The notes under the pieces were generated by a model. The model made no database searches. It saw only the letters and a program-made list of their open reading frames with translations, and was not told where the DNA came from. Source: a virus. Taken from it: 36,987 nt of DNA. The stretch covers positions 1 to 36,987 of the IMG/VR virus record IMGVR_UViG_3300024982_000009, one strand, 5' to 3'. How positions within the stretch are numbered: position 1 is the stretch's first letter; every line of letters starts with the position of its first letter. Of this stretch, positions 1 through 36,313 are shown one piece after another. Both the position numbers and the translations under genes were made by a program.

Positions 1-36
1 AAAGGCGAAGGCTGGGTGACGGCAGTAAAGCGGCTT

Positions 37-116
37 TGAATTCCGGACAAAATGCGCTTGAATTCCGGACGGGAATAAACGCATAAATGTCTTGAATATC
101 GGACAGGAATAAACGC
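37..116. repeat. Left-end repeat array, putative transposase-binding end sites (three copies)
   Basis: Three direct copies of a motif lie between the window edge and the methylase stop. They start at about 37 (TGAATTCCGGAC), 59 (same core) and 93 (TGAATATCGGAC). Copies two and three extend to a 26-bp match (57-82 and 91-116) with three differences, ending in GGAATAAACGC. The same motif occurs inverted at the right end (36861-36890 and about 36940-36969). Clustered sites in opposite orientation at the two ends are what a Mu-type transposase binds. A 5'-TG terminus could lie at 37, but no 5-bp flanking duplication with the right side is seen, so the exact end is unresolved. Confidence 0.72.
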
Positions 117-877
117 TACCAATTGCGGATAATTAACTCCTTTGCCGCCTTTACATTTTTCGCACCACCTACCGTGTAATTGATCCCCACACTCTCCATC
201 GTTAAACCATCAAACGCTTGTCTCATTTCGGGAATATCGTTAACAGAAATAATCATCTTGCCAGCGATAGACTTGGCTAGAGCCGCTATAACATCGTATT
301 GCTCAAGGCCAAAGTCCACGCCATAACCTTCAGTGCCCCAATACGGTGGGTCGAGATAGAACAATGAATGGGGCCGGTCATAACGCTTAATGCAACCATC
401 CCAAGATAAATGCTCAATAAACGCCCGCGATAACCTTAAATGGGCTGCAGACAACTCTTCTTCAATCCGCAACAAATTGAGCCTGGGCGCGCTTGTTGTA
501 GCGGTACCGAAATGCTGGCCGGTTACCTTGGCACCAAAGGCCATCTTTTGCAGATAATAAAAGCGGGCCGCCCTTTGAATGTCCGTCAACGTTTCTTCAG
601 GGGTTGACTTCAGCCAGGCGTAAATTTGTCGGCTTATTAACGCCCATTTAAACTGCCTTACAAACTCCTCAAAATGGTGTTTAACAACCCTATAAAGATT
701 GATCAACTCGCCATTGATGTCATTTAGCACTTCAACTTCGGAAGGCGCTTTCATAAAGAACAATGCCGCGCCGCCTGCAAAGGGCTCTACATAGCATTGA
801 TGCTCAGGGAACAAGGGTAAAAGGCGCTTAGCCAAGCGGCGCTTGCCACCGACCCACGGAATGATAGGAGTTGCCAT
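116..877 (-). CDS. Dam-type DNA adenine N6-methyltransferase (D12 class)
   Basis: A 253-residue SAM-dependent adenine methylase. The N-terminal PWVGGKRRLAK and YVEPFAGGAALFF segments form the SAM-binding motif I region, and the catalytic DPPY is in FYLDPPYWGTEGYG near residue 170. The length is close to that of E. coli Dam (278). The ATG at 877 is chosen because GAGG sits at a good distance upstream; an in-frame ATG at 889 overlapping the com stop (ATGA) is the alternative. It lies directly downstream of the Com-like gene at the phage end, the position of mom in Mu. It probably modifies phage DNA against host restriction and may be under Com translational control. GATC specificity is not proven. 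Confidence 0.9.
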   Translation of the reverse strand: MATPIIPWVGGKRRLAKRLLPLFPEHQCYVEPFAGGAALFFMKAPSEVEVLNDINGELINLYRVVKHHFEEFVRQFKWALISRQIYAWLKSTPEETLTDIQRAARFYYLQKMAFGAKVTGQHFGTATTSAPRLNLLRIEEELSAAHLRLSRAFIEHLSWDGCIKRYDRPHSLFYLDPPYWGTEGYGVDFGLEQYDVIAALAKSIAGKMIISVNDIPEMRQAFDGLTMESVGINYTVGGAKNVKAAKELIIRNW

Positions 878-885
878 GTTAAACC

Positions 886-1035
886 TCATTGTTCGATGCT
901 CTTGGCATTCTGAATTAGAGGCTCGGCGGCCTTCAGTTGATTTAAATACCCACAACGCGGGCATTTAATTGAGATGCGAATAAATTCCGCTTCTAATAAT
1001 TTTTTACGACATTGGTTGCAACGCACAACTAACAT
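886..1035 (-). CDS. com: Com-like zinc-finger translational activator
   Basis: A 49-residue protein read directly from the minus strand. It has two CxxC pairs (CNQC near residues 6-9, CPRC near 25-28) separated by a short strand region, the treble-clef layout of Mu Com (62 residues). In Mu, Com binds the mom mRNA and opens a hairpin that hides the mom start. Here the downstream partner is a Dam-type methylase instead of Mom, with the methylase start within about 10 bases of the com stop. A start at 1035 follows an AGAGTAG-like weak ribosome site. Identity rests on the zinc-finger pattern, size and position. Confidence 0.8.
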   Translation of the reverse strand: MLVVRCNQCRKKLLEAEFIRISIKCPRCGYLNQLKAAEPLIQNAKSIEQ

Positions 1036-1064
1036 AATTACTACTCTGGTCTACCCTTAACACG

Positions 1065-1076
1065 CTGTGTACACAG
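1065..1076. promoter_or_regulatory. Perfect 12-bp palindrome upstream of com
   Basis: CTGTGTACACAG is perfectly symmetric and lies about 30 bp upstream of the com start, in the only sizeable gap (1036-1165) before the com-methylase pair. It could be an operator for a regulator of that pair; no factor is identified. One GATC at 1100-1103 lies nearby. Confidence 0.3.
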
Positions 1077-1144
1077 TACGGTGTCTAGGCCAAACGCAGG
1101 ATCAATCTGCCGATGGTGGCCGTTGAAAGTGCACTAACACTAAC

Positions 1145-1159
1145 AACGGTCACACCGTT
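1145..1159. terminator. Small hairpin downstream of the tail gene
   Basis: AACGGT-CAC-ACCGTT is a perfect 6-bp stem just past the stop of the 1166-1855 gene. The T-run lies on the plus-strand side (1158-1163), so as an intrinsic terminator it would act on plus-strand transcription. On the minus strand it is a hairpin without a T-run and may only attenuate. Confidence 0.35.
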
Positions 1160-1165
1160 TTTTAC

Positions 1166-1855
1166 CTACCAAATAATGGCTTCAATTGCAGCTAAATCAT
1201 CACCCGCCGCTGCTAGCTCGGCCATGCGGATATCTAAATGATTGAGCGAATCAGTAATGTGCGCATCAACAGCTAAACCAACGGCGATAATTTGCGCAGC
1301 TGTATGATCAATCCTCACCCAAACGCCAGCCGCATTTTGGCACTTGAACGAATATGGCTCACCAGCAGCACCCAGCGCCTGCGCTTTAGCAAAGCGTGCT
1401 GATAAAAAGTTTTGATCGTTACGGGTCGACGGATATGTATGCAAACTGCCCAGCGCTGCACAATCAACACCTGCGACAATTTGAGCTTCGCAAGCCAGGC
1501 TAATTTCTGATGTTTTAGCGGCACGCACTTTAACGGCGTCGAGCACCCAGTCGGTACCAACCCATGAATGCAAAGGGCTTGGCTTTGGAATGGATGTAAA
1601 TCCAGACGGTAATGGGCCGAGATCGGCATGATTAGATGGGTTACCCGTTGCCGTGTCATAAATAGTACCGCGATGATCTACAACATTTGACCAATCGTCA
1701 TTGTTAAAAACAGGCCACGTCCCCTCAGTAAATACAGGTTGTTTAGGTGTAGAGTTTTCCGGCGTGATGTAATCGCCGGGCGACTTTGGATTTTCCTGAG
1801 ATATATAGTCGTTAGTAAATTCGCCCGTGCTACCAAATAGATAAAAGGTTTTCAT
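1166..1855 (-). CDS. Tail fibre-associated protein with DUF4376-like domain
   Basis: A 229-residue protein. The C-terminal half, from about residue 110, has the layout of the DUF4376 domain common in phage tail fibre/tail fibre assembly proteins: a helix rich in Ala (AAKTSEISLACEAQIVAG), a short YPSTRNDQNF segment and a FKCQNAAGVWVRIDHTAAQI block. The N-terminal half is low in charge and probably fibre- or chaperone-interacting. A strong AAGGAGG ribosome site precedes the ATG at 1855. It follows the tail fibre gene directly, where Mu has its fibre assembly gene U, so it is either a small fibre subunit or the fibre chaperone. Confidence 0.7.
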   Translation of the reverse strand: MKTFYLFGSTGEFTNDYISQENPKSPGDYITPENSTPKQPVFTEGTWPVFNNDDWSNVVDHRGTIYDTATGNPSNHADLGPLPSGFTSIPKPSPLHSWVGTDWVLDAVKVRAAKTSEISLACEAQIVAGVDCAALGSLHTYPSTRNDQNFLSARFAKAQALGAAGEPYSFKCQNAAGVWVRIDHTAAQIIAVGLAVDAHITDSLNHLDIRMAELAAAGDDLAAIEAIIW

Positions 1856-1864
1856 CAGTCCTCC

Positions 1865-2848
1865 TTAAAATGAGACATAAAATTTGACACGGCGACCAGC
1901 GGCTAGGTTAGCTGAGCCTCCTGTACTGCTAGTAAGCTCAGACCCTGCGCTCTGCTGGACTGTTGATGGGGTTGTATTTACACTCTGACCAGTGCCTGCA
2001 GAGCTATATGACAAATGCGTATGCGCAATAACCTGACCAACACTCAATGAACCCACCGTACCCGTACCCACAGCAATCGGGACATAACCGTCCTCAAAAA
2101 ACGGCAGGCCAAAAGTAGACGCACCGTCACCTGCCCCCCATGCAGTACCTATCGCTGTAAATAAATCAGCATAAGTAGCGCGAGATACATTCATAACTAC
2201 AGTAGCGAGCTGTAAAAAATCACCAACTGGAGCGCCACCCCCGGCAAACGCAATTACTTCTCCAGCTGGCCGTTTAGGTGCAACGATAACGCCCTTAGCT
2301 GGATTTTTTAAAACCCACTTGTCCAGAGTTAAGTCATATTGAATTGTCGCCCAATAGCCAGTGCCTGGAATATCCCCGACAGCCAGCGGCAGGTCGTTAC
2401 CTTTGATAATGGGTTTAGCAGCGATAATGCCGTTATTTGGGGTAAACGTGGGTGTCGTAGTTGTATTAGCAGCCAAACAGCGCACATACAAAACCATACC
2501 ATGCGATGCCGCTAAATCGGTAATAGCAGGGAAAAACCCAGCTACGATCGCATTAGCAGAGCCAACAACACTAGCCTCCGCAATTTTATAATCGTCAAAC
2601 TGCACTGCCGATTTTGTTGCATAGTCACCCGCCGGGTTAATCGATGCAAACTTGGCTTGCAACGCTTGCAACAACTGGCCATTGTCGCCTTTATTAAGCA
2701 CCAAACCAGCCCACTCAATGACGTTGCTTAACTCCATCTGCAACGCATTCATAAAATCGGCTGTGATTTCAGTGGGTGGGCGATTTATCAGCGCATCCTC
2801 CATTACAAACATGTGCCCGAGATGCCCCGCGCCGTCAATCTTGTGCAT
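1865..2848 (-). CDS. Tail fibre protein with collar-type C-terminal domain
   Basis: A 327-residue tail fibre. The N-terminal part (from MHKIDGAGHLGHMFV) attaches to the baseplate side. The C-terminal 90 residues contain the phage collar pattern (GLPFFEDGYVPIAVG, then VGQVIAHTHLSYSSAG) and a Ser/Thr/Gly-rich tip region ending RRVKFYVSF. The start at 2848 has GGAGAGG seven bases upstream; longer forms reading to 3013 have no ribosome site and run through the preceding gene. It overlaps the gp48 gene by 14 bases. It is much shorter than Mu gpS and no invertible segment or Gin recombinase is present, so host range does not switch by inversion here. Confidence 0.85.
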   Translation of the reverse strand: MHKIDGAGHLGHMFVMEDALINRPPTEITADFMNALQMELSNVIEWAGLVLNKGDNGQLLQALQAKFASINPAGDYATKSAVQFDDYKIAEASVVGSANAIVAGFFPAITDLAASHGMVLYVRCLAANTTTTPTFTPNNGIIAAKPIIKGNDLPLAVGDIPGTGYWATIQYDLTLDKWVLKNPAKGVIVAPKRPAGEVIAFAGGGAPVGDFLQLATVVMNVSRATYADLFTAIGTAWGAGDGASTFGLPFFEDGYVPIAVGTGTVGSLSVGQVIAHTHLSYSSAGTGQSVNTTPSTVQQSAGSELTSSTGGSANLAAGRRVKFYVSF

Positions 2849-3416
2849 AATTAACCTCTCCACCGCTGCCGGTAATGTCCTCAAACCATAAATAAACATG
2901 CGCTTGTTTAAATGCCTTAAGTGCCGCCCACAATAAGCGTGGCGGCACGACAGACTGGTAATAACGCACTCGTAAAATATAACGGCTCCGCAAGCCAAAT
3001 AACCGACTACCAACCGTACTGCCCGCCCGAAACGGCCCTACCAAATGCTCAACTTGCACCAGCGGCACCGGAAACGTTAATTCCGCAGCTGCACTACTCC
3101 ACAACCGCGTACCAACCCGGCTACCTACTGCGCACATCTGCCGAGGCATCGTTTCGGCAATACCCGCAACTGCTTGGTTAGCGATTTGCCGATAAGTATC
3201 AATGTGCCAATTCGCCACGGTTGGCCGGTGGGTTTCGATGGCATTATCAAGCACAGCCTGTGTTGCCGCATCAACGCGGGCCAACTCTGCCGCCGTGCCT
3301 TGCAGCAGCGTAAAACCCACACCGCTTTCCGGCCAATCCCATGCCGCACCCGGCGGCAACAGGGCTTTAATAGCGCGAGCATAGTCATTGGCATCGTGCG
3401 GATTGATCTGCATCAT
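2835..3416 (-). CDS. Baseplate protein, Mu gp48 family (YmfQ/DUF2313)
   Basis: About 193 residues. The N-terminal pattern ALLPPGAAWDWP...LLQGTAAELARVDAA is typical of the Mu gp48/YmfQ family, which completes the baseplate next to the gp47 wedge. The ATG at 3416 overlaps the gp47 stop as ATGA; a second ATG lies at 3413 and a GTG at 3422. Gene order gp47-gp48-tail fibre matches Mu. Confidence 0.85.
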   Translation of the reverse strand: MMQINPHDANDYARAIKALLPPGAAWDWPESGVGFTLLQGTAAELARVDAATQAVLDNAIETHRPTVANWHIDTYRQIANQAVAGIAETMPRQMCAVGSRVGTRLWSSAAAELTFPVPLVQVEHLVGPFRAGSTVGSRLFGLRSRYILRVRYYQSVVPPRLLWAALKAFKQAHVYLWFEDITGSGGEVNYAQD

Positions 3417-4459
3417 GACCACTGCACCGGATTTAATACAAGAATCTCACCCGGCCCAACGGCAATGCTGGCTAGTGGTAACAAGCGGGTATATTGCTGG
3501 GTAACCGTTGCGATCGCCGCATCAATCTCAGCCATGGTCAGCAATGACGTCTCTGTTGCCTCGGATAACACCAACGCCTGCAACGCCGCTGTAATGGCCT
3601 CGCGGTTGGCGCTGCTATCAAAGCCGGGCAACAACGCAATCATAATATCGACAGCTTTTAACAGTGGGCTGGTGACGCGCCAGTCCGCTGTCGCCGGGGC
3701 AATACCATTAAAATAACTTTCCACAGCTGCGAATACAGCAGGTGTTGGCAGGCGATCAGTTAAACCATTGCATATTGGCCGCACAACCACCGTGCCCAAA
3801 CCCAAAACATGCGGCTGTACTAATGCGCCGGTCACTGAGGGATGCGCGCTTTTAGCCCAAAACCGATAATCCTCAGCCTTTCCAGATCGACCGCCCCGCG
3901 TCACCATCACGCGCCATTCATCGGCCACGCGCACCCGCCACGCCTCCAGCGTTTCTTCGGCTGCACCGCCGGTTAATCCAGCGGTATCAACAGTCAACGT
4001 ACTATTAACGCCAGGTGCCGGATCAACCAGGGTTAACGTCTGGCCTGCCAGCAAATTACCTGCAGCACCGGTGGACACACTGCGCACAGTGACCGATGTG
4101 GCCCCCGCACCCAGCGTTACCGCCGCCAATACCGTGTAATCCAACCCGTTTTGGCCGCGCAATAGTGTATTAGCCAGCAGGTCAGTCCCCACCGTGCCGG
4201 TAGCCACCACCAGCCCGCTGGCCAATGAGGCTGCTAACCTATCTACGCCATACAACGCCGCCCAATCGAACAACCGCTCCAGCTCGCAGGTAAGCGGGCT
4301 GCACTGGGCATCAATCCACTCTAAATAACCGTGCTGGCTATGACATGCCCTCGCCCATGCCGCAGACAACGGGCCGCGCAAAACCGCTGGAACGGCTGCT
4401 AGATCAGTTTCAATGCGCGTTTTTAATGCGTCGTAAGGTGGGCGAGCGTAAATAGTCAT
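3413..4459 (-). CDS. Baseplate wedge protein, Mu gp47 / P2 gpJ family
   Basis: A 348-residue baseplate J-like protein. The central part (RGQNGLDYTVLAAVTLGAG then SVSTGAAGNLLAGQTLTLVDPAPGVNS) is the hallmark of the family, followed by GGAAEETLEAWRVRVADEWR. It forms the wedge around the central hub with gp46. It starts ATGA-coupled to the gp46 gene and ends coupled to gp48, so it is part of one baseplate operon. Confidence 0.93.
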   Translation of the reverse strand: MTIYARPPYDALKTRIETDLAAVPAVLRGPLSAAWARACHSQHGYLEWIDAQCSPLTCELERLFDWAALYGVDRLAASLASGLVVATGTVGTDLLANTLLRGQNGLDYTVLAAVTLGAGATSVTVRSVSTGAAGNLLAGQTLTLVDPAPGVNSTLTVDTAGLTGGAAEETLEAWRVRVADEWRVMVTRGGRSGKAEDYRFWAKSAHPSVTGALVQPHVLGLGTVVVRPICNGLTDRLPTPAVFAAVESYFNGIAPATADWRVTSPLLKAVDIMIALLPGFDSSANREAITAALQALVLSEATETSLLTMAEIDAAIATVTQQYTRLLPLASIAVGPGEILVLNPVQWS

Positions 4460-4860
4460 AATGCCGTGCTGAATAAAAACTTTGTGCCATTGTGCAATCC
4501 AGCGATGTCTATAAACAGACTGGAAACACTTCCCGGCGGGGCAATACGCTCTGTGACAACGACATCAGATAACGCCGGGCTATGGCTTTGCAGAGCTTGT
4601 TGCACTCCATTTAATGCCTCACGCCGCGCGGCAGGGCTTAGGCCTTGTCTGCGCACATGCCAAATGCCGCTGCCCGCGTCAGCCTTCGCCCACCAGCCGC
4701 GCCGGGTAAATCGGTCCGGGGCGCGATTGATGGGGGCCTCGGCATCGGTAAACAGCACTGTATATATAAGAGTGGCCACAGCGGCATCGGTGTCGGTTTG
4801 CGCTGGATCAGCAAACACCAGGTCAAACACACCGTTATCAATTTGCACTAAATTCAGCAT
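4456..4860 (-). CDS. Baseplate protein, Mu gp46 family
   Basis: A 134-residue homologue of Mu gp46 (gpW-like baseplate wedge). The signature is a short N-terminal strand (LVQIDNGVFDLVF) followed by AVATLIYTVLFTDAEAP and RRGWWAKA. It sits between gp45 (spike) and gp47 (wedge), as in Mu. The gp45 stop (TAA at 4863-4861) directly precedes its ATG at 4860. Confidence 0.88.
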   Translation of the reverse strand: MLNLVQIDNGVFDLVFADPAQTDTDAAVATLIYTVLFTDAEAPINRAPDRFTRRGWWAKADAGSGIWHVRRQGLSPAARREALNGVQQALQSHSPALSDVVVTERIAPPGSVSSLFIDIAGLHNGTKFLFSTAL

Positions 4861-5355
4861 TTAATTAACTCCGCTAGTCGGTGAGCCAGCCGCCGCGCTG
4901 GTATGGGTATGGGTATCGCTGACGTTTTTACCGTTGACTGTCAGTCCGCCGACAATATCAACATCGCCGCCAACTTTTAGGTGTTGCGTAGTCTCGACCA
5001 GCGGGCTATCAATCAACACTTTCGTAGTCGCTTTAACCTCAATATTGCCATCGCGTTTAATGGCTACGTAGTTGCCCTGGTCATCATGCAAAGCCACTTC
5101 GCCGCCGACCAACTCCATTTGATATTGCTTATCGCCAACCACCAGCGCCACCCCATACGAGCGGTCACCGGACGGAAACACGATATAGGCTTGGCAACCT
5201 GCCAGCGGTCGACTGCTAAACCCGTAGGGCTCAACCCGGCGCACGTTATTCAGCACCTCGCCATCCAACACCTTTACCTGCAACTTGTCAGCGCTTACCA
5301 ACGTGGCCACACCGTGGCCAATCATCAATTGCAGCCGGTTCCAAATCTGTTTCAT
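4861..5355 (-). CDS. Baseplate spike / puncturing protein, Mu gp45 (P2 gpV) family
   Basis: A 164-residue spike protein. The N-terminal OB-like domain (about residues 1-85, with GFSSRPLAGCQAYIVFPSGDRSYGV) is followed by a beta-helical stretch and an apex motif THTHT near residue 147. In the gpV/gp45 family the HxH triplet binds an iron ion at the membrane-piercing tip, and this is present here. It starts ATGA-coupled to the end of the gp44 gene. Confidence 0.9.
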   Translation of the reverse strand: MKQIWNRLQLMIGHGVATLVSADKLQVKVLDGEVLNNVRRVEPYGFSSRPLAGCQAYIVFPSGDRSYGVALVVGDKQYQMELVGGEVALHDDQGNYVAIKRDGNIEVKATTKVLIDSPLVETTQHLKVGGDVDIVGGLTVNGKNVSDTHTHTSAAAGSPTSGVN

Positions 5356-6362
5356 TTTTTTGCCTTCTTTTTGCTGACGCCTTTCTTGCCGGTTTTTTTA
5401 GCATCGCCTTCAAACGCCTGCCGATGCATCACTTGCAGCTGGGTGGTCGTTCCGTTGTGGTCGTCCTGAGTAAAACTGCGCTCGCCGATCAAAAACACAC
5501 CGTCGATGCCCTCTTCGGGAATAATCACCCGCACCTGAGTATTAATCGCCCATAACCCGCCCGCATGCGTCCAGCCAACCACATCCAGCTCGATGCGGTG
5601 TGCTCTGGCCAGACGACGATTACGCTCCAGCAACGCACGCCGATCACTGCCGCCTTGGCCTTGGCCATAACGGTCGGCAACAATTTGCATGGGGCGATAA
5701 TGGGTAATGCCGTCGTCTTTTACTTTGCCGTTGATAGCTGCATCGTTTTCATAGTCGTAGCCCTTTACCCAGTATTCAGAGTGGCGCAGCTTAAACTCGT
5801 CGACCACGTCATAACGTTTGATATGTACACCATAGATAAGAGTAGCGACCGGCGCGGCGTTGGTCGGCGGCGTTAATACCAGTCCGCCATCTGGCGAGGG
5901 GTGCAGTAGCATATTCGCGGCCCGCGCGGCATTGATCAGCGCATTGGCCGGGGCTTCTGATTGCATGGCAAAATCAGGCACCACCGCTGTGTCACCAACG
6001 ATCTTCACAGGCACTTTAAACGCGCTACAAAGCTTGTTTGCGATTTCGCCAAGTTTTAATCCGGACAGCGTGACCGAATACTGGCTGTCCACCAACTCGC
6101 GGGCCAACGAGCGCGCATCAATGCTGATGGTATGGCTATTAGCATCAACCGACCGGCGCACCACATCGGGCCGCACAGTGGATACCAACAGCCCATCAAT
6201 CAACACCTCAACCACCGTGCTGGCTGATAACCCCAACGACTCACCGGAACCAGGCCGGGTAATCGATAGCCGCACCGTTGCGCTCATATCATCAACTGAC
6301 TCACTAATTGACACTTTTTGCCAATACCCGTAGCGCTTGCCATTAAATCGCAACTCAACCAT
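5352..6362 (-). CDS. Baseplate hub protein, Mu gp44 (gpP) family
   Basis: A 336-residue baseplate hub protein of the Mu gpP/P2 gpD type. It has an N-terminal LRFNGKRYGYWQKVSISESVDDMSATVRLS strand region, a middle SVTLSGLKLGEIANKLCSAFKVPV domain and a lysine-rich tail (KKTGKKGVSKKKAKK). The start at 6362 (MVELRFNGK) fits the family; it overlaps the gp43 stop by 8 bases. The hub links the tape measure end of the tail to the gp45 spike. Confidence 0.9.
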   Translation of the reverse strand: MVELRFNGKRYGYWQKVSISESVDDMSATVRLSITRPGSGESLGLSASTVVEVLIDGLLVSTVRPDVVRRSVDANSHTISIDARSLARELVDSQYSVTLSGLKLGEIANKLCSAFKVPVKIVGDTAVVPDFAMQSEAPANALINAARAANMLLHPSPDGGLVLTPPTNAAPVATLIYGVHIKRYDVVDEFKLRHSEYWVKGYDYENDAAINGKVKDDGITHYRPMQIVADRYGQGQGGSDRRALLERNRRLARAHRIELDVVGWTHAGGLWAINTQVRVIIPEEGIDGVFLIGERSFTQDDHNGTTTQLQVMHRQAFEGDAKKTGKKGVSKKKAKK

Positions 6363-7515
6363 TAATACGCCCCTGCATAAACAACGGATGCCGTACCGCG
6401 TTACGGGCCAACAACACCGCCTCATCAACCTCCAGCAAATACGCTAACAGCGTGGCAGGCAACGGGTTAAGCACGTCGCGCACTACCGCCGGGTTTAATT
6501 CTTGCGCCAACAGCGCCTCGCGCAACGCGGCACGGGCATCCACCGCCGCTTGAAACACCACATCAGGCAGACTGGGCAACAACGCCTCAAAAGCGGCATC
6601 AACACTGGCTAGGGCCGCGTCCCTGTCCGCCTCGGAGCGGTAATCAGTCAAGGCCACTTGCGCGGCTGCCATCACTAACAAACGGCTTTGCAACGCCGAT
6701 TGTTGTTGTAAGTTACGGCGCACTGCGCCATCGGTTAGCCCGGCTGTAGAGGCGCTATTCGTCATGGCCAGAGTGCATAGGCGAGATACCAGGCGCGGCC
6801 GGTCGGTATCGGCAACATCAACATCGTCCGCACTGGCACCAAAGCTGTTCATCAGCCCACGTAGTGCATTGGCATACGCGCCCGGCATGCCCATTAGCGT
6901 GCCGATATCGCCTTTAATGCCGGTAATCACCCCCATGATTTGCTGGGCATAGGTCAGCGGTAAGCTGGCAAGGGCAATCACGGTGCGCACTACTTCCAGC
7001 TGATTTTGCACAGCGGCAATAAACGCCGTCATTCCATCCTCATTCATAGCTTCCGGCTCAAAATCATCCTCGGCGGCATCGCCCAAGGTGTGAGAGCGAT
7101 CAAATGCGACATCAACCTTATCGGGCTCAGCGCCAAACGGCTGCTCGCCGCCGGGTACAAACATAATCGACAGCGTGCAATAGCCGTTTTTATCGCTCGA
7201 CTCAGTGCGTGACCATTGCTGAGCACGTACCCACAATTGTCCCAACCAGGGATGCGTCAGCCAGGTCGGGCCGGATTCATTCAGCTTGGCTAATAGGCCG
7301 TTGCACTCCAGGTCATACTGCGGGCCAGTAAAATAGGCGGTCAGTTGATACTCGCGGGCCTTGCCGCCCATGTCCTCAACCAACGGCTCTTCCGCGCCGG
7401 GGTACTCATGTACCACCAAACGGCGGCCGTATTTGGCATCATGGCTGTCGGTGCGAAATTCAAAGCCCCGGAAAGACGCCGTAGCCCAGCGGTCGTAAAA
7501 GGTTTGCTCAGCCAT
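6355..7515 (-). CDS. DNA circularisation / tail protein, Mu gp43 (gpN) family
   Basis: A 386-residue protein whose first 100 residues match the 'DNA circulation' N-terminal domain (FRGFEFRTDSHDAKYGRRLVVHEYPG, then AREYQLTAYFTGPQYD). In contractile-tailed phages this is a baseplate/tail component. The stop of the tape measure gene and its ATG share a base (TAATG). The middle contains long helical Ala-rich segments. Confidence 0.9.
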   Translation of the reverse strand: MAEQTFYDRWATASFRGFEFRTDSHDAKYGRRLVVHEYPGAEEPLVEDMGGKAREYQLTAYFTGPQYDLECNGLLAKLNESGPTWLTHPWLGQLWVRAQQWSRTESSDKNGYCTLSIMFVPGGEQPFGAEPDKVDVAFDRSHTLGDAAEDDFEPEAMNEDGMTAFIAAVQNQLEVVRTVIALASLPLTYAQQIMGVITGIKGDIGTLMGMPGAYANALRGLMNSFGASADDVDVADTDRPRLVSRLCTLAMTNSASTAGLTDGAVRRNLQQQSALQSRLLVMAAAQVALTDYRSEADRDAALASVDAAFEALLPSLPDVVFQAAVDARAALREALLAQELNPAVVRDVLNPLPATLLAYLLEVDEAVLLARNAVRHPLFMQGRING

Positions 7516-9572
7516 TATGGCGCTCCGTGATGAATATTCCCGGTGTTAACGCTGACATTGCCGTCACCCGATGTTTGCATGCCCTTTGAAACAAACTGAA
7601 AACCCGGCGGCGCGAGCAGCTCGAATTTAGCATTAAGCTCAGTTGGTTTTGCCGGTTCAGCAGGCTTATTAAAGCCTTCGACAATCAGCCCAGCGCCTGC
7701 GCCAATGAGGGCGCCAAAGCCAGTGCCAAGACCGGGGACCACGCTACCGACAGCGCCTCCAGCCATACCGCCGTTTAAAATAGCTTTGCCATAACGACCC
7801 CACGCCTTATCTTCGCCGCCGGCAGCATCAATGGCATAATCGCCAGCCAACGCCCCGGCCCCAAATAAACCACCGCGCATCCCAAGCTTTGTCAGCATAC
7901 TTACGCCCTTTGCCGCTACACCACCCGCACCGGTACCGCCCCCCAATGCCAATGCTGACATTCCCGCCGCTCCAGCCAACGCGATTAAGGGCGGTACAGT
8001 GGCCACGGTTGCCGATGTCATACCCGGGAATTTTTGCGCTAAATCAGTAAATAAATCGGCGGCCTTGCTGATAGTGGGGGTCAGCTTGTCCATCGCTGAT
8101 TTTTGAGCGATTTGTGCTTCTTGCTCGACATTGCGTACCGCCGCCGAGGCGGTGGCTGACATCACGTCGAAGTTTTTATCATTGGCGCCAAATTCTTTGC
8201 GATTGTTGCCGATAAACTGATCGACTCGGCTGGTAGTGTCGGTATTGCGCAACGCCAGCAACGCGCTTTTGGCTTGCATATCGCGGAAAAAATTACCGAT
8301 CACACTGCCTTCGGTCATTTGCGACAACGCCTCAACCAGGGCGGTTTTTTCTTCTTTGCTTTGCGCGGCCTTTAGTTTTGCCATGGCCTCTTTCAGCATG
8401 GGACTTTTTTCGGCTTCTTTGTCGATAATCTTTAGCCAGGCATCAACCGCATCCACCCCTTTGGCGCGCTCGTTAAGCATAAATTGCGCTAGATCACCAC
8501 GGCCCGCGTCTTTAAATTGATTAGCGGTATCAGGGGAGTTGAGTTTGCTTAATAGGTTTTTAACATTGGTACCGGCCTCATTGACACCGCCTGACGTTAA
8601 CACCGCCGCCTGGTTCATGGTCAGCACTTTTTGCAGGCCGGTAAGGCCGGTCATACCAACACCCTTGGCGATGCCCAACTGCTCGGGCAAGGCCTTGGCC
8701 AGGTCTTTAATCTCAAAACCGCCCGCTTGGCCGGATGCCGTCACCATGTTGAGTGCGGTTTTTAACTCCTGGTTGTTTTTGACAATGCCCTGGCCATACA
8801 GGGTGCTGGATAGTTTGGCGATGTCGAGCGGATCGGCGCGGTTGGCAAAGGCAGTACGGGTAACGGTGGGCAAGCTGTCCAATGCGCCTTGCAACCCCAA
8901 ATTACCTTCACCGATTAATACCTCCAATGCTGACGCTGCTTGGTCACGGGTGCCACCACCGCCACGCTTTAAATCGACAGAGCGGTTAATCACATCTTCC
9001 AGAGACTTAGCTCCGGACAACGTACCTTTCGCGTCGCGCTCAGGGAATGCAGTAGTAGCCATGCCCGCCAAGCGCTCATCAAAACTCATTGCCGTGGTCA
9101 GCGGGCCTTTTAGTGCATAGCCAGCAGCGACACCACCCACCGCTAACGAACCACCCAGCCGCAAGCGGCTTTGGGTCTTTTCAAAGTCCTTGGCCGCGCG
9201 CGCGGCTTTTTCTTGCTCGCGGGTCAGCTTGCCCATTTCATTGGTTAGACTGGTGATTTTGCTCTTGGTTTTATCGGCGGCGCGGGCTAAGGCCGCTTGG
9301 CTCATTGTGCCGGAGGCTTCCAGACGCTTGTAAGCGCTTTCAGTCCGTGAGATTTCCAGCTGGATTTTCTTTTCTGAGCGCATGCCCAGCGATTCGCGGG
9401 CTTGTGACAGCCTGTCAAAGCTGGCGCGCTGGCGGGTGTTGGACTGGGTAACGGCGGCTTCGGCCTGTTTAGTCGATTTCTCTACATCTTTGGCATATTT
9501 GTTAATACCTGACGTTGCGCCTTTATCGACAAACTTAAGCCGAACTTCAACGTCGGCGGCGGCATTAGACAT
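7515..9572 (-). CDS. Tail tape measure protein (Mu gp42 position)
   Basis: A 685-residue tape measure. It has an N-terminal coiled-coil region (about residues 20-140, rich in Glu/Lys/Ala), then a TP901-type core with MTTAFPERDAKGTLSGAKSLEDVINRSVDL and GTRDQAASALEVLIGEG, and glycine/alanine-rich membrane-like segments around residues 530-635 (VPPLIALAGAAGMSALALGG; GAVGSVVPGLGTGFGALIGA). It sets tail length and passes into the host membrane at infection. The ATG at 9572 follows a seven-T run and hairpin (9579-9606) that contains its ribosome site, described separately. Confidence 0.93.
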   Translation of the reverse strand: MSNAAADVEVRLKFVDKGATSGINKYAKDVEKSTKQAEAAVTQSNTRQRASFDRLSQARESLGMRSEKKIQLEISRTESAYKRLEASGTMSQAALARAADKTKSKITSLTNEMGKLTREQEKAARAAKDFEKTQSRLRLGGSLAVGGVAAGYALKGPLTTAMSFDERLAGMATTAFPERDAKGTLSGAKSLEDVINRSVDLKRGGGGTRDQAASALEVLIGEGNLGLQGALDSLPTVTRTAFANRADPLDIAKLSSTLYGQGIVKNNQELKTALNMVTASGQAGGFEIKDLAKALPEQLGIAKGVGMTGLTGLQKVLTMNQAAVLTSGGVNEAGTNVKNLLSKLNSPDTANQFKDAGRGDLAQFMLNERAKGVDAVDAWLKIIDKEAEKSPMLKEAMAKLKAAQSKEEKTALVEALSQMTEGSVIGNFFRDMQAKSALLALRNTDTTSRVDQFIGNNRKEFGANDKNFDVMSATASAAVRNVEQEAQIAQKSAMDKLTPTISKAADLFTDLAQKFPGMTSATVATVPPLIALAGAAGMSALALGGGTGAGGVAAKGVSMLTKLGMRGGLFGAGALAGDYAIDAAGGEDKAWGRYGKAILNGGMAGGAVGSVVPGLGTGFGALIGAGAGLIVEGFNKPAEPAKPTELNAKFELLAPPGFQFVSKGMQTSGDGNVSVNTGNIHHGAP

Positions 9573-9667: not shown

Positions 9668-10113
9668 TTACTTGAACTCTCTGCCATCCATGCCAGCCGC
9701 TATTTTAGCCCACAAAAACAGCTCATCCAGCGGCATAGATTTAACCACCGGCAGCGGCTGGCACATGCACTTTGCCACCAGCGCCACTGCCGTGATAATC
9801 CGCATTACTTTTTTTCAGCGGCCTGCTCGGGGTTATTATCCGTTGATGCTGAGCTTGTCGAACCATCGTCTTGCTCAGCATCATCCGCCAGCAACATCGC
9901 CTCAGCAATCCGCTCAGCCGCCCGGTAATCCGGCCCGCGCAACTGCTCAATCAATGCCTCATCAGTGCCGGTCAAACTGGCAATCAACGCAATCCGCTGA
10001 GCAACGCCGCCCTTTTTATCAAACGACAGATAATCAGCCGCCGTAGTGTAATCGCGGAATTTCAGCTCGGAGATGGTTTTTTTTCCAACTGTTAGTGGAT
10101 GTTTAAGATGCAT
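9668..10113 (-). CDS. Tail assembly chaperone, -1 frameshift product (gp41-type fusion)
   Basis: Frameshift product of the gene at 9805-10113. The last codons GAA AAA AAG sit in the dnaX-type slippery heptamer A AAA AAG (9814-9808) just before the TAA. A -1 slip continues for 46 more codons to a TAA at 9670-9668. The extension contains PLDELFLWAKIAAGMDGREFK, which looks like a real helical protein segment. The product would be about 148 residues. Programmed frameshifting of tail chaperones located just upstream of the tape measure gene is known for lambda G/GT, P2 E/E' and Mu; the position and heptamer here match. Confidence 0.82.
9805..10113 (-). CDS. Tail assembly chaperone, unshifted form (Mu gp41 family)
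   Basis: A 102-residue protein of the Mu gp41 / P2 gpE tail chaperone type. The N-terminal motif LKHPLTVGKKTISELKFRDYTTAADYLS is characteristic; the C-terminus is acidic and low complexity (DDAEQDDGSTSSASTDNN). It ends at the slippery AAAAAAG TAA. The unshifted form probably binds tail tube subunits, while the shifted form recruits tape measure protein. It is separated from tail tube by the inserted deacetylase gene, unlike in Mu, where tube and chaperone genes are adjacent. Confidence 0.85.
   Translation of the reverse strand: MHLKHPLTVGKKTISELKFRDYTTAADYLSFDKKGGVAQRIALIASLTGTDEALIEQLRGPDYRAAERIAEAMLLADDAEQDDGSTSSASTDNNPEQAAEKK
9808..9814 (-). promoter_or_regulatory. Programmed -1 frameshift site A AAA AAG
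   Basis: The heptamer fits the X XXY YYZ rule in the zero frame (AAA AAG in P and A sites) and is the same as the E. coli dnaX site. The zero-frame stop TAA follows immediately, and the -1 frame stays open for 46 codons. Confidence 0.85.
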
Positions 10114-10149: not shown

Positions 10150-11823
10150 CTAGACCAATTTAGTCACTTCGGCATAATCAACGCAGTCAAAAACGTCACA
10201 TGCACCAGCCGCTCTACTTGCAACAATGCTATCCAGCAGAATGCGAACATCACTGATCCTCGCCTGGTTACTCAGTGGCACGACAGAGTCATCTACTATG
10301 TCATGCAAGTAGATTCCTGCGCCTCTTCTCAGGGAGATGGCCATATCTTTTACCGCTATCAAAGCTCCAGCGCCACCAGTCGCTATAAATCCGCCCGAGC
10401 CGCTTAGCGCATAGTTGGTGTGCTCAAGCGCAGGAAACTCATACTGTGATGATGTTAACCGGGCAATAGTGATGCCGCAGTCTCTGTAGACGCGTTGCAA
10501 AATACCGGTAAACTGCCCAGCGACAACGATGCCGAGATGCAGCGCCTTGTCTAAGCCAAGCTCGATGTATTTTTGTTTGCAGCCATTAATTTCAGCGTAC
10601 ATTTCTGAGTAGTTTGGGGAGATACCAATAGATGTATTAGCGGCTGCCCCGTCTGGGCAGGTGATGCTAATAACCTTAGTAAACTCAGTCTTTGTCCAGC
10701 TTGGAATATTATTTAACCCAATTAATGTTTCAACTGTCAGCACACCATTAACTTCACCGGTGATGATAAAGCGTTTGTTGGCGTTATTTATGCCTATATT
10801 AATGACGACGTGCCTTGGTGAGTCAAAATTACTGCCCCCGGTGCTGCCGTTAAGTAATAAGTCATTACCCGCTGTTACTGTTTGTGCCAATCCTATTTGA
10901 TTGCATGGGCCTCCATTACCTACCACGCCGTGTCCTGTCGCTGCGAATTTGTGGTTAACCGTGTGATTTGCAATTGACACCCCATTTTTCTGCATCTCTT
11001 TTAGCTGAGCTAGCGTGACTGTGCTAGCATTTTTATCGATATTAGAGCTGACTACCGCCAAGCTAAAAGGTAGCGAGCGCGCCACCATCTCTGGATACAG
11101 TTTTATTGCTTGACTAGCGAAGCCGTCATCTGCACTCAGATGTATGGCTGGCTTCATAGCGGCGTTGATAATTACTTTTTTTATCGATATGCTGCCAGTC
11201 GCATTAAAGCTGTTAAATGTTAAACGCATGTAATTGATGATACTGCCTATCGTTACAGCCCCAGTACCCCCAGGCACAAAAAGACTAGCTGGGATTGTAA
11301 AAAGTTTTACTGCTCCCTCAATAGGGATACCCTCAAACGCAATGGCTGAGGTGGTTTGGAGGGTATATGCGGTAAAGTCCCCTATCGTTGATGATAGGTA
11401 CATAGCGATACTGCCGGACGCATGCCCTTCAACGTATGCCAATACGCTAATCGTTGTCGTGTTTTCAAGTACAAACGGGGTGCATGAAAAATCAATTTTA
11501 TTGTTTGCAAGCGGACCAGAGTCTTTTTTTATCTGAATAGCATTTCCCCCAGTGCCTGTCTTGTCTATGACGAGGCTTAAGGTGGAGTTCGCTTCGATGG
11601 TGGGTAGTGCTATATCGGCTAAGCTGGTAAAATTTTTGATTATAGTGCCTGTGTATACTGACTGTGGTTTCTGTCTGATAGACATCACATTTTTACCGTC
11701 ACTGACATAATCGATACCGTCTACAATAACTTTTCCAATGCCATACGCCGCCGCCCCCCCATCGGCCTCAAACTCACTTAAGCTGTCATATTCCCAAACC
11801 TCACGCGCTCTTCGCTTACCCAT
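10150..11823 (-). CDS. Polysaccharide deacetylase (CE4/NodB-like) cargo protein in the tail operon
   Basis: A 557-residue protein not found at this place in Mu. Residues about 225-295 carry the NodB-type core: HLSADDG with metal/catalytic Asp232-Asp233, YPEMVARSLPFSLAVV, and HTVNH (His287, His291), the H-x3-H metal motif. A later IYLHD (His507) fits the second catalytic His. The N-terminal 220 residues form beta-rich repeats, like a virion-attachment or carbohydrate-binding region. A second long insert (about 300-400) splits the catalytic domain. The ATG at 11823 has AGGGGG upstream. It may be a virion or secreted enzyme that deacetylates surface polysaccharide, or a lysogenic conversion gene. 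Lower GC than its neighbours suggests separate acquisition. Confidence 0.78.
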   Translation of the reverse strand: MGKRRAREVWEYDSLSEFEADGGAAAYGIGKVIVDGIDYVSDGKNVMSIRQKPQSVYTGTIIKNFTSLADIALPTIEANSTLSLVIDKTGTGGNAIQIKKDSGPLANNKIDFSCTPFVLENTTTISVLAYVEGHASGSIAMYLSSTIGDFTAYTLQTTSAIAFEGIPIEGAVKLFTIPASLFVPGGTGAVTIGSIINYMRLTFNSFNATGSISIKKVIINAAMKPAIHLSADDGFASQAIKLYPEMVARSLPFSLAVVSSNIDKNASTVTLAQLKEMQKNGVSIANHTVNHKFAATGHGVVGNGGPCNQIGLAQTVTAGNDLLLNGSTGGSNFDSPRHVVINIGINNANKRFIITGEVNGVLTVETLIGLNNIPSWTKTEFTKVISITCPDGAAANTSIGISPNYSEMYAEINGCKQKYIELGLDKALHLGIVVAGQFTGILQRVYRDCGITIARLTSSQYEFPALEHTNYALSGSGGFIATGGAGALIAVKDMAISLRRGAGIYLHDIVDDSVVPLSNQARISDVRILLDSIVASRAAGACDVFDCVDYAEVTKLV

Positions 11824-11831
11824 ATCGCCCC

Positions 11832-12194
11832 CTACGCTATGCGCTCAGATGTATTGCTCATGATGGTTATTTTGCTCTCGCCATCACCAAACCCGACTGG
11901 CTCCGTGACAAACGCCTGGCTCATCATGTAGACGTGGCCATCGGTGAGGCGGATGGTTACGTCTTCTCCGGCCACGGCGTTAAGGGCATCCATATCGATG
12001 CCGCTTTGCAGGTTGATGTTTAAATCCAGTTTGGCTGGTTGGCTGGAGGTTAAAAAACCGCCGTCCTCCGGCAATCGGCCGGGTTTGTGGTCGCGTTTGT
12101 CGCCGGAGGGCGTAAAGGTGCCGGGGCTGGCCGCCAGTGGAAGCTTGCCCAGGCTTGGCACCGACACGGTGCGGATGTTGTTTAATTGAGCCAT
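11832..12194 (-). CDS. Tail tube protein (Mu gpM family)
   Basis: A 120-residue tail tube protein: NNIRTVSVPSLGKLPLAASPGTFTPSGDKRDHKPGRLPEDGGF, then a DVTIRLTDGHVYMMSQAFVTEPVGFGDGESKI tube-fold core. Size and position after the sheath gene match Mu gpM. A CGGAGAT ribosome site precedes ATG 12194. It polymerises inside the sheath as the DNA channel. Confidence 0.9.
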   Translation of the reverse strand: MAQLNNIRTVSVPSLGKLPLAASPGTFTPSGDKRDHKPGRLPEDGGFLTSSQPAKLDLNINLQSGIDMDALNAVAGEDVTIRLTDGHVYMMSQAFVTEPVGFGDGESKITIMSNTSERIA

Positions 12195-24595: not shown

Positions 24596-24624
24596 ATTGT
24601 GGTACTCATTTGAGTACTTGTCAA
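24596..24624 (-). promoter_or_regulatory. Early promoter with operator in the spacer
   Basis: On the minus strand TTGACA (24624-24619, perfect -35) is followed by a 17-base spacer and CACAAT (24601-24596, -10 with 4/6 match). The spacer is almost filled by the palindrome GTACTCAAATGAGTAC (24617-24602). A repressor bound there would block RNA polymerase directly. Confidence 0.78.
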
Positions 24625-24650
24625 CTTTTGTTTGGTATATAAATGAGTAC
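24602..24650. promoter_or_regulatory. Repressor operators in the divergent region
   Basis: GTACTCATTTGAGTAC (24602-24617) has perfect 6-base arms. A half site GAGTAC recurs at 24645-24650, overlapping the repressor start codon, so repressor could also control its own gene. No Shine-Dalgarno is visible before the repressor ATG at 24643, which would fit a leaderless message as for lambda cI. Confidence 0.6.
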
Positions 24651-25101
24651 TATCGGAAATAGATTGAAAGAAGAGCGTGAACGCATGCGCTTAAACCAAA
24701 CATCATTTGGCGATTTGGGCGGGGTAAAAAAACAAGCTCAGCTAAAATATGAAAAGGACGATAGGGCACCAGATGCAAAGTATTTGGCTGATATAGCCGC
24801 CGGTGGTGCAGATGTTTTATATATATTGACTGGCGAGCGAACGGAAAACGTCGCCCACACACCCATGGAATTAGGTTATCTACGGCATTGCCGATTACTA
24901 GCAACCAAGGGACTGGAAGGCGAAGGCCTAAAGGGATTGGCATTTTTAAGGGAGTCAAACGGTATATCGATAGACGACATGCCCGATGCGTACCAACAAA
25001 TAGGTAAGCAAATCAATATGCCAGTTGGGCTATATACCGTTCATGAAGCGGGGCCTGGCTATAATGAGACAAATAAATCAAAGGATGAGGTTAAAGAATG
25101 A
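24643..25101 (+). CDS. Phage repressor (c), XRE-type helix-turn-helix
   Basis: A 152-residue repressor. The N-terminal 70 residues hold an XRE fold (IGNRLKEERERMRLNQTSFGDLGGVKKQAQLKYEKDDRAPDAKYLADIAAGGADVLYILTG). The C-terminal part has no Ser-Lys S24 peptidase motif, so it is unlikely to be cleaved through RecA as lambda CI is. It is divergent from the Ner-like gene across the operator region and should hold the prophage silent. Confidence 0.88.
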   Translation: MSTIGNRLKEERERMRLNQTSFGDLGGVKKQAQLKYEKDDRAPDAKYLADIAAGGADVLYILTGERTENVAHTPMELGYLRHCRLLATKGLEGEGLKGLAFLRESNGISIDDMPDAYQQIGKQINMPVGLYTVHEAGPGYNETNKSKDEVKE

Positions 25102-25625
25102 AATTAATGGCATTTGTTTTATTGCTGCTTTTTAACTTGACATGCCAAGCTAATACCGGGAGTGATAACGCCAAACCACAACAGCCTTCATTTCGCGATC
25201 GTTATAACGCCATAGCGAAAATAAGAGCTCCTGCATTAGGGATTCGTGAATGCATCACAACTAAAAGCATTGGTAGAAACCGTGACACGCTTATCGAATG
25301 CCCATTAATTTCTGCTGGCGCTCAACTTAATGTGAGTGGTTTAAATAATCGCTTTACAGCTGCGATTCTCGATCTTGATGTCAAGAAACTAGACAATTCT
25401 GGTGACCTCATGGATGCAGGAAGAATTCTGCTGCGCTTAGCGCGGGATAAGGATTTTGAAAAAGAAGATCAATTGGAAATGATGCAGCTGGTCATTGAGG
25501 CTCAAGAGAATCCGGGGAAAGATGCTTGCGTGGATACGCCAGAGCAACACACACGATTTTGCGTAACAACTGACGACAAAAAACTTTATCACTTTGCCAT
25601 TCTCGATCCTGAGAAGTGGAAGTGA
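25098..25625 (+). CDS. Secreted hypothetical protein in the immunity operon
   Basis: A 175-residue protein with an N-terminal signal peptide (KLMAFVLLLLFNLTCQA, cleavage probably after residue 18) and a mature part with several Cys (RECITTKS, IECPLIS, DACVDTP, RFCVTT) that could form two disulphides in the periplasm. It is ATGA-coupled to the repressor gene, so it is made in the lysogen. This is typical for a lysogenic conversion or superinfection-exclusion gene. No family recognised. Confidence 0.7.
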   Translation: MKLMAFVLLLLFNLTCQANTGSDNAKPQQPSFRDRYNAIAKIRAPALGIRECITTKSIGRNRDTLIECPLISAGAQLNVSGLNNRFTAAILDLDVKKLDNSGDLMDAGRILLRLARDKDFEKEDQLEMMQLVIEAQENPGKDACVDTPEQHTRFCVTTDDKKLYHFAILDPEKWK

Positions 25626-25879
25626 GCAGGGGAGGTTCTGCTGTTAGTGCCGGCATATAAAAACAGATGGTTTAAAAAGTGCAATGCATCATCTATCTTC
25701 AACACATTTCATATAAAAAATAATCCATGCTTGATGCCTATGAGCCCATCAATATCTAAGCCATAAGGTAAAAACATATTAAATTCATCTATCTAAAAAA
25801 ATTAAGTGCTCAATGAAATAAATTTAAATGATTCATTCCTGATCATATTCAACTAACAACAGACTAATAAGGAAAAGTA
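25626..25879. other. AT-rich intergenic region before the two-gene module
   Basis: About 254 bases of AT-rich sequence without a convincing gene. It may contain the promoter of the 25880-27150 pair: TTGATG with TATCTA at 16-base spacing around 25732-25759 is the best candidate, but weak. No hairpin terminator was found. Confidence 0.35.
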
Positions 25880-26737
25880 GTGAAAGTTCATGTATTTAAA
25901 GTTGATGCCCATAATAGCAACCCATTAGAAAATGTTTTTAAATTAGTTGAGCAAGAAACTGATTTGCGAAAAAGGATAAGAATTGTTGGTGCCGTTGAGA
26001 TGCGTGCAGAATATATAAAGAAGACCAATGATTTATGGTTGATGGATTTTGTGCGAATTAGAACCGATCATGGTCCTGGAAAGGTTGGAAGAGATAATAA
26101 AATTGAGGGTATACCATTTAAAGATGACGAAGGCTTCGGTGAAGAGACTGCCGCTCTTTATGATCCATTAACTGGATATATGCTTATTCAATATAACCAC
26201 TTTGGTGTTCGTGCTGGGTCAATAGCAGATTACTTAACTATTTATGATGGGGCCAATACCAATGTTTATTCGCTCAACCCAAAGTTTGACGATGATATTG
26301 AGCGAAAGCTGGCTAAAAAAGGAATTACGAAAAAGATTGCTTTTAGTATTGATATTAGCAAAATGAATGTACAAGATAGAGCTTCTGGAACGGCACTTTC
26401 AGAGGCTATTTCTCTAGGAAGAAATGCTAATGCGAATAAAATTACAATAGTGCTATCGGCGGGCGGTGGGAGATCAAAAGGTTTGTCTGAAATAGGCGCA
26501 TCACTATTTGGTTCAGTAAAATCCTTACTAACTAGCAATCCTGAGGCAGTTACCAAACTTGAGTTTTCCGGAAAAGATGATAAAGATGCAATTACTGAGG
26601 TATTAGATTTAATTGGTCAACGATTAACAACTGATTTTGATAAATTAAAAGCCGGAGATGATTTGAGATATCCACGTAAAGAACGATTGATGGCATTAAT
26701 CCGAGCTAAAAATGGTTGGAAAGATAAACTTGTGTGA
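25880..26737 (+). CDS. Putative exclusion/defence protein, soluble partner (DUF6731-like)
   Basis: A 285-residue soluble protein with GTG start (25880) and AAGGAAAAG ribosome site. A central signature GFGEETAALYDPLTGYMLIQYNHFGVRAG and a helical C-terminal third are visible. I tentatively place it in the DUF6731-like group, without being able to search. It is coupled to a four-helix membrane protein and lies in the repressor region. This matches lambda RexA (279 residues) beside RexB next to cI in size and layout, though no sequence similarity is claimed. Codon use is AT-rich compared with the structural genes, suggesting separate transfer. Confidence 0.6.
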   Translation: MKVHVFKVDAHNSNPLENVFKLVEQETDLRKRIRIVGAVEMRAEYIKKTNDLWLMDFVRIRTDHGPGKVGRDNKIEGIPFKDDEGFGEETAALYDPLTGYMLIQYNHFGVRAGSIADYLTIYDGANTNVYSLNPKFDDDIERKLAKKGITKKIAFSIDISKMNVQDRASGTALSEAISLGRNANANKITIVLSAGGGRSKGLSEIGASLFGSVKSLLTSNPEAVTKLEFSGKDDKDAITEVLDLIGQRLTTDFDKLKAGDDLRYPRKERLMALIRAKNGWKDKLV

Positions 26738-27150
26738 TGAACGCTCTATTTTTTGAAAAATGGTATCCCTATTTATTGGGGCTGATTGCCGGAATAATTT
26801 GGTTTGAGCTAAATCCTTGCTTCCCATCAACTGATGCTATTCTCTCGGCTACCCTTACTGTGTCTGGAATATTTGTTGGATTCTTAGCAACAAGCAAAGC
26901 TATTTTGATTAGCATGAATTCTGGGTTGATCGGCGATTTAAAGAAAAGCGGCTATATAAAAGACTTAGTTTCATATATGGGTCAAGCAATTTGGCTAAAT
27001 CTAGTTTTTTGCACTTTCAATGTTATTGGTTTTTTTGATATTCAAAAAACAAGTTGGTTTCCTATTATTTGGGTTACTTTATCTGTAATAGCTTTGATGA
27101 CATTTGTTCGTGTCACGCACATCATGTTACAAATTTTTAAGCACGGTTAA
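26737..27150 (+). CDS. Putative exclusion/defence membrane partner (four transmembrane helices)
   Basis: A 137-residue protein with four predicted membrane segments: about 9-25 (PYLLGLIAGIIWFEL), 36-57, 82-98 (AIWLNLVFCTFNVIGFF) and 106-123. The start ATG 26737 overlaps the previous stop (TGATG); a GTG at 26734 is possible. The topology and length resemble lambda RexB (144 residues, four helices). Together with its partner it could be a two-component abortive-infection module with a membrane effector. It ends before a symmetric hairpin. Confidence 0.62.
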   Translation: MNALFFEKWYPYLLGLIAGIIWFELNPCFPSTDAILSATLTVSGIFVGFLATSKAILISMNSGLIGDLKKSGYIKDLVSYMGQAIWLNLVFCTFNVIGFFDIQKTSWFPIIWVTLSVIALMTFVRVTHIMLQIFKHG

Positions 27151-27174
27151 TAAGTTATTACAAATAATCGAGTT

Positions 27175-27204
27175 GACCATTGCGAGCACATCCTCGTAAT
27201 GGTC
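27175..27204. terminator. Bidirectional hairpin between converging operons
   Basis: GACCATTGCGAG-cacatc-CTCGTAATGGTC forms a 12-bp stem with one G-U/A-C position. It lies between the rightward two-gene module and the leftward lysis cassette. T-runs are lacking, so termination efficiency is uncertain. Confidence 0.55.
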
Positions 27205-27207
27205 AGT

Positions 27208-27279
27208 TCAGCAGCTCAGCAACAACGCAACAACGCTAATCACCAGCCACATGATTAAAATAGTGGTCATATTAATCAT
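27208..27279 (-). CDS. 23-residue membrane peptide ending the lysis cassette
   Basis: The ATG (27279) shares a base with the stop of the holin-like gene (TAATG). The frame encodes 23 residues that are nearly all hydrophobic (ILIMWLVISVVALLLSC), one transmembrane helix. Stop-start coupling and the membrane context make it plausible as a lysis-timing peptide; being so short, it may also be chance. Confidence 0.45.
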   Translation of the reverse strand: MINMTTILIMWLVISVVALLLSC

Positions 27280-27449
27280 TAATCTTTAACCCCCACGCCC
27301 AACCCGCCCGCAACCGTTGAGGCAATAAACATCAACTGCGACGTGTCTTTAGTGCCCCAGGTGTAGATCAGGCCGATAACACCAGCCACTATCCAGATTA
27401 GCCCGCGTTTGGTGGAGTTTTGTGCAAAGTCGATGCCTAGTTTGTCCAT
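27279..27449 (-). CDS. Holin candidate
   Basis: A 56-residue protein with two hydrophobic segments (GLIWIVAGVIGLIYTW and LMFIASTVAGGLGVGV) separated by a polar turn, and few charges at the ends. Small size, two helices and the position in a cassette with an endolysin fit a small holin. TAGGAG lies upstream of ATG 27449. Confidence 0.6.
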   Translation of the reverse strand: MDKLGIDFAQNSTKRGLIWIVAGVIGLIYTWGTKDTSQLMFIASTVAGGLGVGVKD

Positions 27450-27451
27450 TG

Positions 27452-28018
27452 CTATGCTCCTAAAATGATGTGCATAAAAACCAACCCTAAGATTAGATCT
27501 TGAAAAATGCCGTAGAAAATCTCTGACCGTGCCCATGCATCAGGCACAAACCAACCGGCTGTAAATCGGGTGGCCACGCTGCAAAAAGCGCTGACCGGAA
27601 ATAGCAGTGCCAGTAGGGTGATGGCGGCAAAGATTTCAAACGGGTTAGTTACCCAGCACAGTGGTAAAAGTGCCGGTATCCACCAGTAAAATCCCCGAAT
27701 TATCAGCGCGACGATGTTGTACTTTCTGACGGTTTCGCTATATGAGCACAGCGGGATGTCATCAATGCTGATGATCTTTTTAGCTAGCCAGCGGATGCCG
27801 TTACCTTTACCTTCATCGCCTAGTTTTGCGTGCCCGCCCACTAGTCCGCCAAGCCAATCCCCCCACCCCATGGACTCGCCAATGATGTAGCCAATGCCAC
27901 AGGCAAGCGCTACGCTAAAATTATGGGTGGTTGCAAACACCAGTAGGCCAAGCAGCACGCCAACGCCCTTGGCGGCCCAGCCCCACTGGCCGCGACATCG
28001 ATTTAAAACAGTAAACAT
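27452..28018 (-). CDS. Membrane protein in the lysis cassette
   Basis: A 188-residue protein with about four to five hydrophobic segments (GVGVLLGLLVFATTHNFSVALACGIGYIIG near the start; NIVALIIRGFYWWIPALLPLCW; IFAAITLLALLFPVSAF; DLILGLVFMHIILGA). It starts at ATG 28018 (GAGGACACACC upstream) and overlaps the preceding small gene. Not recognised; it may modulate holin timing or alter the envelope. Confidence 0.6.
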   Translation of the reverse strand: MFTVLNRCRGQWGWAAKGVGVLLGLLVFATTHNFSVALACGIGYIIGESMGWGDWLGGLVGGHAKLGDEGKGNGIRWLAKKIISIDDIPLCSYSETVRKYNIVALIIRGFYWWIPALLPLCWVTNPFEIFAAITLLALLFPVSAFCSVATRFTAGWFVPDAWARSEIFYGIFQDLILGLVFMHIILGA

Positions 28019-28747: not shown

Positions 28748-28809
28748 ATCGGCACTCCTAACAGTTTGGGTTGCAAAAACGATACGCCAACCCCTGCCCA
28801 TTGGCCGCT

Positions 28810-28825: not shown

Positions 28826-28880
28826 GCTGAGCAAATTCCCCGCGCGCGCGTAACCTGCAACTTCAATCTTTGGAGCTGTT

Positions 28881-36310: not shown

Positions 36311-36313
36311 ATT

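Follow-up and report, generated by a model that had tools for sequence, protein, structure and literature searches.

Both modular tail depolymerases and NodB domains in virions have been described before. The turret head protein of the archaeal virus HFTV1 is a virion protein in which a galactose-binding-like domain is followed by a NodB deacetylase-like domain (PMC12494034). Modular tailspikes and fibres with SGNH esterase or depolymerase domains include Aristophanes gp41 (PMC8471582), Possum gp66 (PMC9569702) and Klebsiella prophage enzymes (PMC13123978). NodB domains also occur in large proteins of Bacillus phage G (gp673) and of a TM7 phage (CQ476_49), the gene of the latter adjoining pectate-lyase-like and tail-fibre genes.

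The window analysed here (36,987 bases) covers in full the virus record IMGVR_UViG_3300024982_000009. Its gene set is Mu-like, with a transposase, a DNA transposition protein, Gam-like proteins and a Mu-type head protease, together with structural genes for capsid, sheath, tube, tape measure and baseplate. The phage is a Mu-like, contractile-tailed virus, probably of methane-eating bacteria, with a Methylomonas-family methanotroph as its likely host, since its tube protein shares 85% identity with the tube of a Methylomonas sp. SURF-2 prophage and all carriers of the same N-terminal anchor (A1, see below) with a named host are Methylomonas. An ordinary tail-fibre region is retained at positions 22-7548, in addition to the gene described below. 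The terminase, portal and minor head genes (24600-36987) have plus-strand orientation and diverge from the transposase and the remaining late genes, an arrangement that differs from Mu's. Four relatives (L106, L107, G238 and G239) likewise have terminase and transposase in opposite orientations, so this is not an assembly error.

As the sequence-only reading had proposed, a 557-residue protein is encoded between the tail tube and the tail chaperone, both of which were recognized by their PHROGs families (Table 1); the tape measure gene follows the chaperone (phrog_794, E=5e-129). The gene lies on the minus strand, the plus-strand frame being full of stops. A wrong-strand or spurious reading frame was rejected in view of the real minus-strand ORF with its ATG. 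The gene begins 8 nt past the tube stop and ends 36 nt ahead of the chaperone start, and its translation is probably coupled to that of the tube gene at the 8-nt junction. Its GC content is about 0.45, against 0.52-0.58 in the surroundings, and PHROGs holds no family for its product.

Table 1. Positions of the cargo gene, its domains and its borders in the window, with the members of the recurrent N-terminal anchors.
Feature	Position	Strand	Basis or members
Tail tube protein, upstream border of the slot	11832..12194	minus	phrog_185, E=1.5e-10
Tube-cargo junction, 8 nt, GGGGCGAT from tube stop TAG to cargo ATG	11824..11831	minus	ribosome-binding-site-like
Modular 557-aa protein with CE4/NodB polysaccharide deacetylase domain	10150..11823	minus	ATG start
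Anchor family A1, residues 1-50	11674..11823	minus	common to L003, L005, L106, L107, L112, L193
Probable beta-sandwich, residues ~55-215	11179..11661	minus	strands at low confidence; gp673 similarity starts inside
NodB catalytic domain, first half, residues ~216-296	10936..11178	minus	Pfam and motif alignment
CE4 motif 1, D232-D233-G234	11122..11130	minus	motif alignment
CE4 motif 2, H287-T-V-N-H291	10951..10965	minus	motif alignment
Insert within catalytic domain, residues ~297-402 (~105 residues)	10618..10935	minus	near end-to-end PF01522 match once omitted
NodB domain, second half, residues ~403-557, motif 5 inside	10153..10617	minus	Pfam and motif alignment
CE4 motif 5 (LxH), L506-H507-D508, as I-Y-L506-H507	10300..10308	minus	motif alignment
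Tail assembly chaperone/tail protein, downstream border of the slot	9805..10113	minus	phrog_166, E=3.4e-11
Anchor A1 members			window, L003, L005/L194, L106, L107, L112, L193
Anchor A2 members			L036, L038, L039
Anchor A3 members			L016, L027, L030, L163, L182
Anchor A4 members			L011, L043

This gene is no one-off oddity, and the tube-chaperone gap is a recurrent cargo slot. Relatives were gathered by sheath, tube and chaperone searches, and the gap was measured in 79 loci whose tube genes are distinct. It was empty (5-50 nt) in 43 of these and filled in the other 36, of which 10 have a gap of 0.2-0.6 kb and 26 carry 1-3.5 kb of cargo. Two loci with a 0.2-0.6 kb gap, L120 and L183, have no clear cargo ORF. 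A tree built from 77 sheath proteins requires at least 17 changes between the empty and filled states, with L120 and L183 scored as filled. Where relatives do use the slot, they may place quite different sugar-active proteins there. The earlier premise that tube and chaperone genes adjoin in Mu-like phages holds for these 43 loci and for six isolates from outside the lineage, among them Mu, but fails for the remaining 36. Assembly artefact was rejected as an explanation, since many independent records, and sequenced Methylomonas genomes as well, have cargo in the slot.

At least four unrelated families of N-termini (A1-A4) recur among the slot cargoes and are followed by unrelated modules. A1 precedes NodB in the window protein, a long fibre-like protein in L112 and SGNH modules in five other loci. 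Of these five, L003 and L106 exceed the PF13472 cut-off and L107 falls short of it; in L005 and L193 the SGNH module was recognized by eye only. The modules behind A3 include an SGNH hydrolase and a NodB-like protein. Genes bearing A1 always lie immediately behind the tube gene, and both A1 and A3 were confined to the slot when the viral collection was scanned with the two anchors and 237 Methylomonas-family genomes were searched with the window protein. A1 is confidently predicted to fold as a small beta-alpha-alpha-beta-beta-beta domain (AlphaFold2, mean pLDDT 83). Foldseek searches with this model gave no significant match in the PDB or among viral structures (best viral E=0.17); some of the top, non-significant entries were tailspike, tail-fibre and Mtd N-terminal structures. 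With a conserved N-terminal anchor and exchanged C-terminal modules, the slot proteins have the organization of modular tailspikes and receptor-binding proteins.

Cargo differs even between close relatives. G239 is colinear with the window over its length, with a DNA identity of about 66-93% by segment (86% in the tail-fibre region) and protein identities of 98% for the transposase and 93% for the terminase. The DNA match ends at position 11833, at the tube stop, and restarts at 10107, at the chaperone start, with no similarity between. Breaks in two other relatives fall at almost the same places (11837/10117 in L085, 11833/10119 in L039), whereas in L106, which shares A1, similarity persists through the first 34 codons of the cargo gene and then stops. 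These break points indicate that either the whole gene or everything except the anchor is exchanged. The reading of the G239 terminase (G239:C1:31661-33361) carries one in-frame TAG.

The other cargoes are diverse. Those of L002, L003, L027 and L106 score above the cut-off for SGNH hydrolases (PF13472), the L038 cargo has at its end a K1-lyase_C domain, known from the C-terminus of a capsule-specific lyase, and tail-protein families were found in L012. Multi-gene cargoes occur in L012, L113 and L116, including a protein of ~104-108 aa (phrog_1084 in L012), a collagen-like protein with GPQG repeats and further genes. A gp49-type gene of ~98-117 aa (PF13876, as tested on L062) stands alone in five slots of the 0.2-0.6 kb class (L051, L059, L062, L114 and L117), and the slot is therefore not reserved for tail adhesins. 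Besides the window protein, the only NodB-like slot protein seen is a degenerate form in L016 (L016:3897-5429), with MDGN for DDG and HTGAGA for HxxxH. With an Asp gone from motif 1 and the second His from motif 2, it is probably catalytically dead. A tyrosine-recombinase-like gene lies between cargo and chaperone in L016 (6137-7060; PF00589), L027 (11474-12394) and L030 (11744-12658), the latter two versions being 78% and 56% identical to the first. These three slots share anchor A3 and the conserved recombinase-like gene and differ in cargo; the recombinase may be connected with cargo exchange.

The CE4 assignment made earlier from SADDG, HTVNH and LHD was borne out, the motifs being located within a PF01522 match above the curated cut-off (E=3.4e-7). 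Once the insert is omitted, the match extends nearly end to end (profile positions 7-122 of 124, E=2e-9), which argues that the insert, also noted earlier, is real and that the NodB domain is no chance motif match, an explanation rejected on both E-values. By family analogy, D232 and D233 (in the context S230-A-D232-D233-G234) would be the catalytic base and the metal Asp, and H287 and H291 the metal histidines. In the alignment, the catalytic Asp, the D-H-H metal triad and the motif-5 His (H507) are all retained. CE4 motif 3 (RxP[YF]G), which lines the active site, is absent from the window protein, the Arg and Pro-Tyr being replaced in IVVAGQ where phage G gp673 has AYPYGN; deacetylase activity is uncertain for this reason. 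In an AlphaFold2 model of the whole protein (seven-row alignment, pLDDT 42), the anchor took shape and the catalytic domain did not. Overall, the sequence points to a probable polysaccharide deacetylase.

The extra beta-rich N-terminal region of the sequence-only reading is consistent with the strands predicted between anchor and NodB domain, at low confidence; by its position, this probable beta-sandwich would be carbohydrate-binding-like. Searches of viral and genome contigs revealed no close relative of the whole protein, and a two-row profile of the NodB part gave no confirmed one. The nearest phage relatives are gp673 and CQ476_49, which align over the NodB part only (plus adjoining strands for gp673) and differ in N-termini and hosts. 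Among the CE4 deacetylases, PgaB/BpsB (PDB 4u10/5bu6) and 6dq3 show a weak local match around motifs 1 and 2; in contrast to these, the window protein has the insert, no motif 3 and no signal-peptide-like start. The insert had no significant match in Pfam, PHROGs or phage records. A weak likeness was seen to the NDAGLTFTVTGTAANG... segment of a 5353-residue open frame in the Methylomonas-family genome L207 (36% over 59 residues, E about 0.05).

Our preferred reading, which we hold to be likely, is that the tube-chaperone slot is exchangeable, that the window gene is among its many alternative cargoes, and that this gene encodes a virion-bound, glycan-active tail module. The cargo protein would be co-produced with the tube and dock onto the tail through its short N-terminal anchor, displaying a sugar-binding-like beta domain and the NodB domain. 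At host contact, it would bind and deacetylate surface polysaccharide and so help attachment or passage to the cell wall. That the protein is instead a virion-bound sugar binder only, a NodB-fold pseudo-enzyme serving as lectin or receptor-binding protein, appears unlikely. The missing motif 3, the insert inside the catalytic domain and the L016 protein without metal-site residues speak for it, but D232, D233, H287, H291 and the motif-5 His are kept where drift would be expected absent selection.

A virion-bound tail module also has to be weighed against a moron or lysogenic-conversion gene, not part of the virion, that would alter the lysogen's own surface polysaccharide and block rival phages. 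Variable presence, an accessory location, a GC content below that of the flanks and the small gp49-family genes in other slots would suit such a gene. It is nevertheless quite improbable given that the tube gene is so close, that no signal-peptide-like hydrophobic stretch can be read at the N-terminus, that consensus scans found no coding-strand promoter-like site directly upstream, within the tube gene (11832-12194), and that the anchors are common to tailspike-like modules. A lysis-time or injection-time peptidoglycan or periplasmic enzyme, in line with the late-operon location and with the peptidoglycan deacetylases of the CE4 family, is the least credible, as the SGNH, K1-lyase-type and fibre-like modules of homologous slots suit surface glycans rather than peptidoglycan. 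Of the two uses proposed earlier, at lysis or on the virion, the former is thus the less likely, with no signal-peptide-like stretch and an anchor common to unrelated modules, and we infer that the protein is best read as a virion-borne enzyme directed at host surface glycan.

The HFTV1, Aristophanes and Possum proteins are functional precedents for such a tail module, none having the location or anchor of the window gene. The HFTV1 protein likewise has a NodB-like domain behind a sugar-binding-like one, but it is mounted on the turrets of the capsid by way of a separate base protein, and it is not reported to have a catalytic-domain insert or a tube-linked slot (PMC12494034). The Aristophanes, Possum and Klebsiella proteins similarly combine an N-terminal attachment part with interchangeable glycan-active modules and a role in host recognition; the window gene differs from them in its tube-chaperone location, its other anchor of ~50 residues, its CE4/NodB domain in place of SGNH and the separate tail-fibre locus of its phage. 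No description of the slot or its anchors was found in the open-licence papers searched.

More tentatively, at somewhat less than even chances, the slot might be a dedicated cargo port in Mu-like contractile phages of environmental Proteobacteria. Its anchored proteins, placed along the tail or at the neck, would form a second receptor-enzyme system, independent of the baseplate fibres and swapped gene by gene between close relatives. Seen as slot cargo, a lone odd gene becomes part of a general and testable system, a plug-in site at which a temperate phage swaps its sugar-coat tool and leaves the rest of its genome, tail fibres included, unchanged. The site and manner in which a contractile tail carries accessory enzymes would become testable, and the slot would yield a catalogue in which glycan-active enzymes are paired with environmental hosts that have been little studied, methanotrophs among them.
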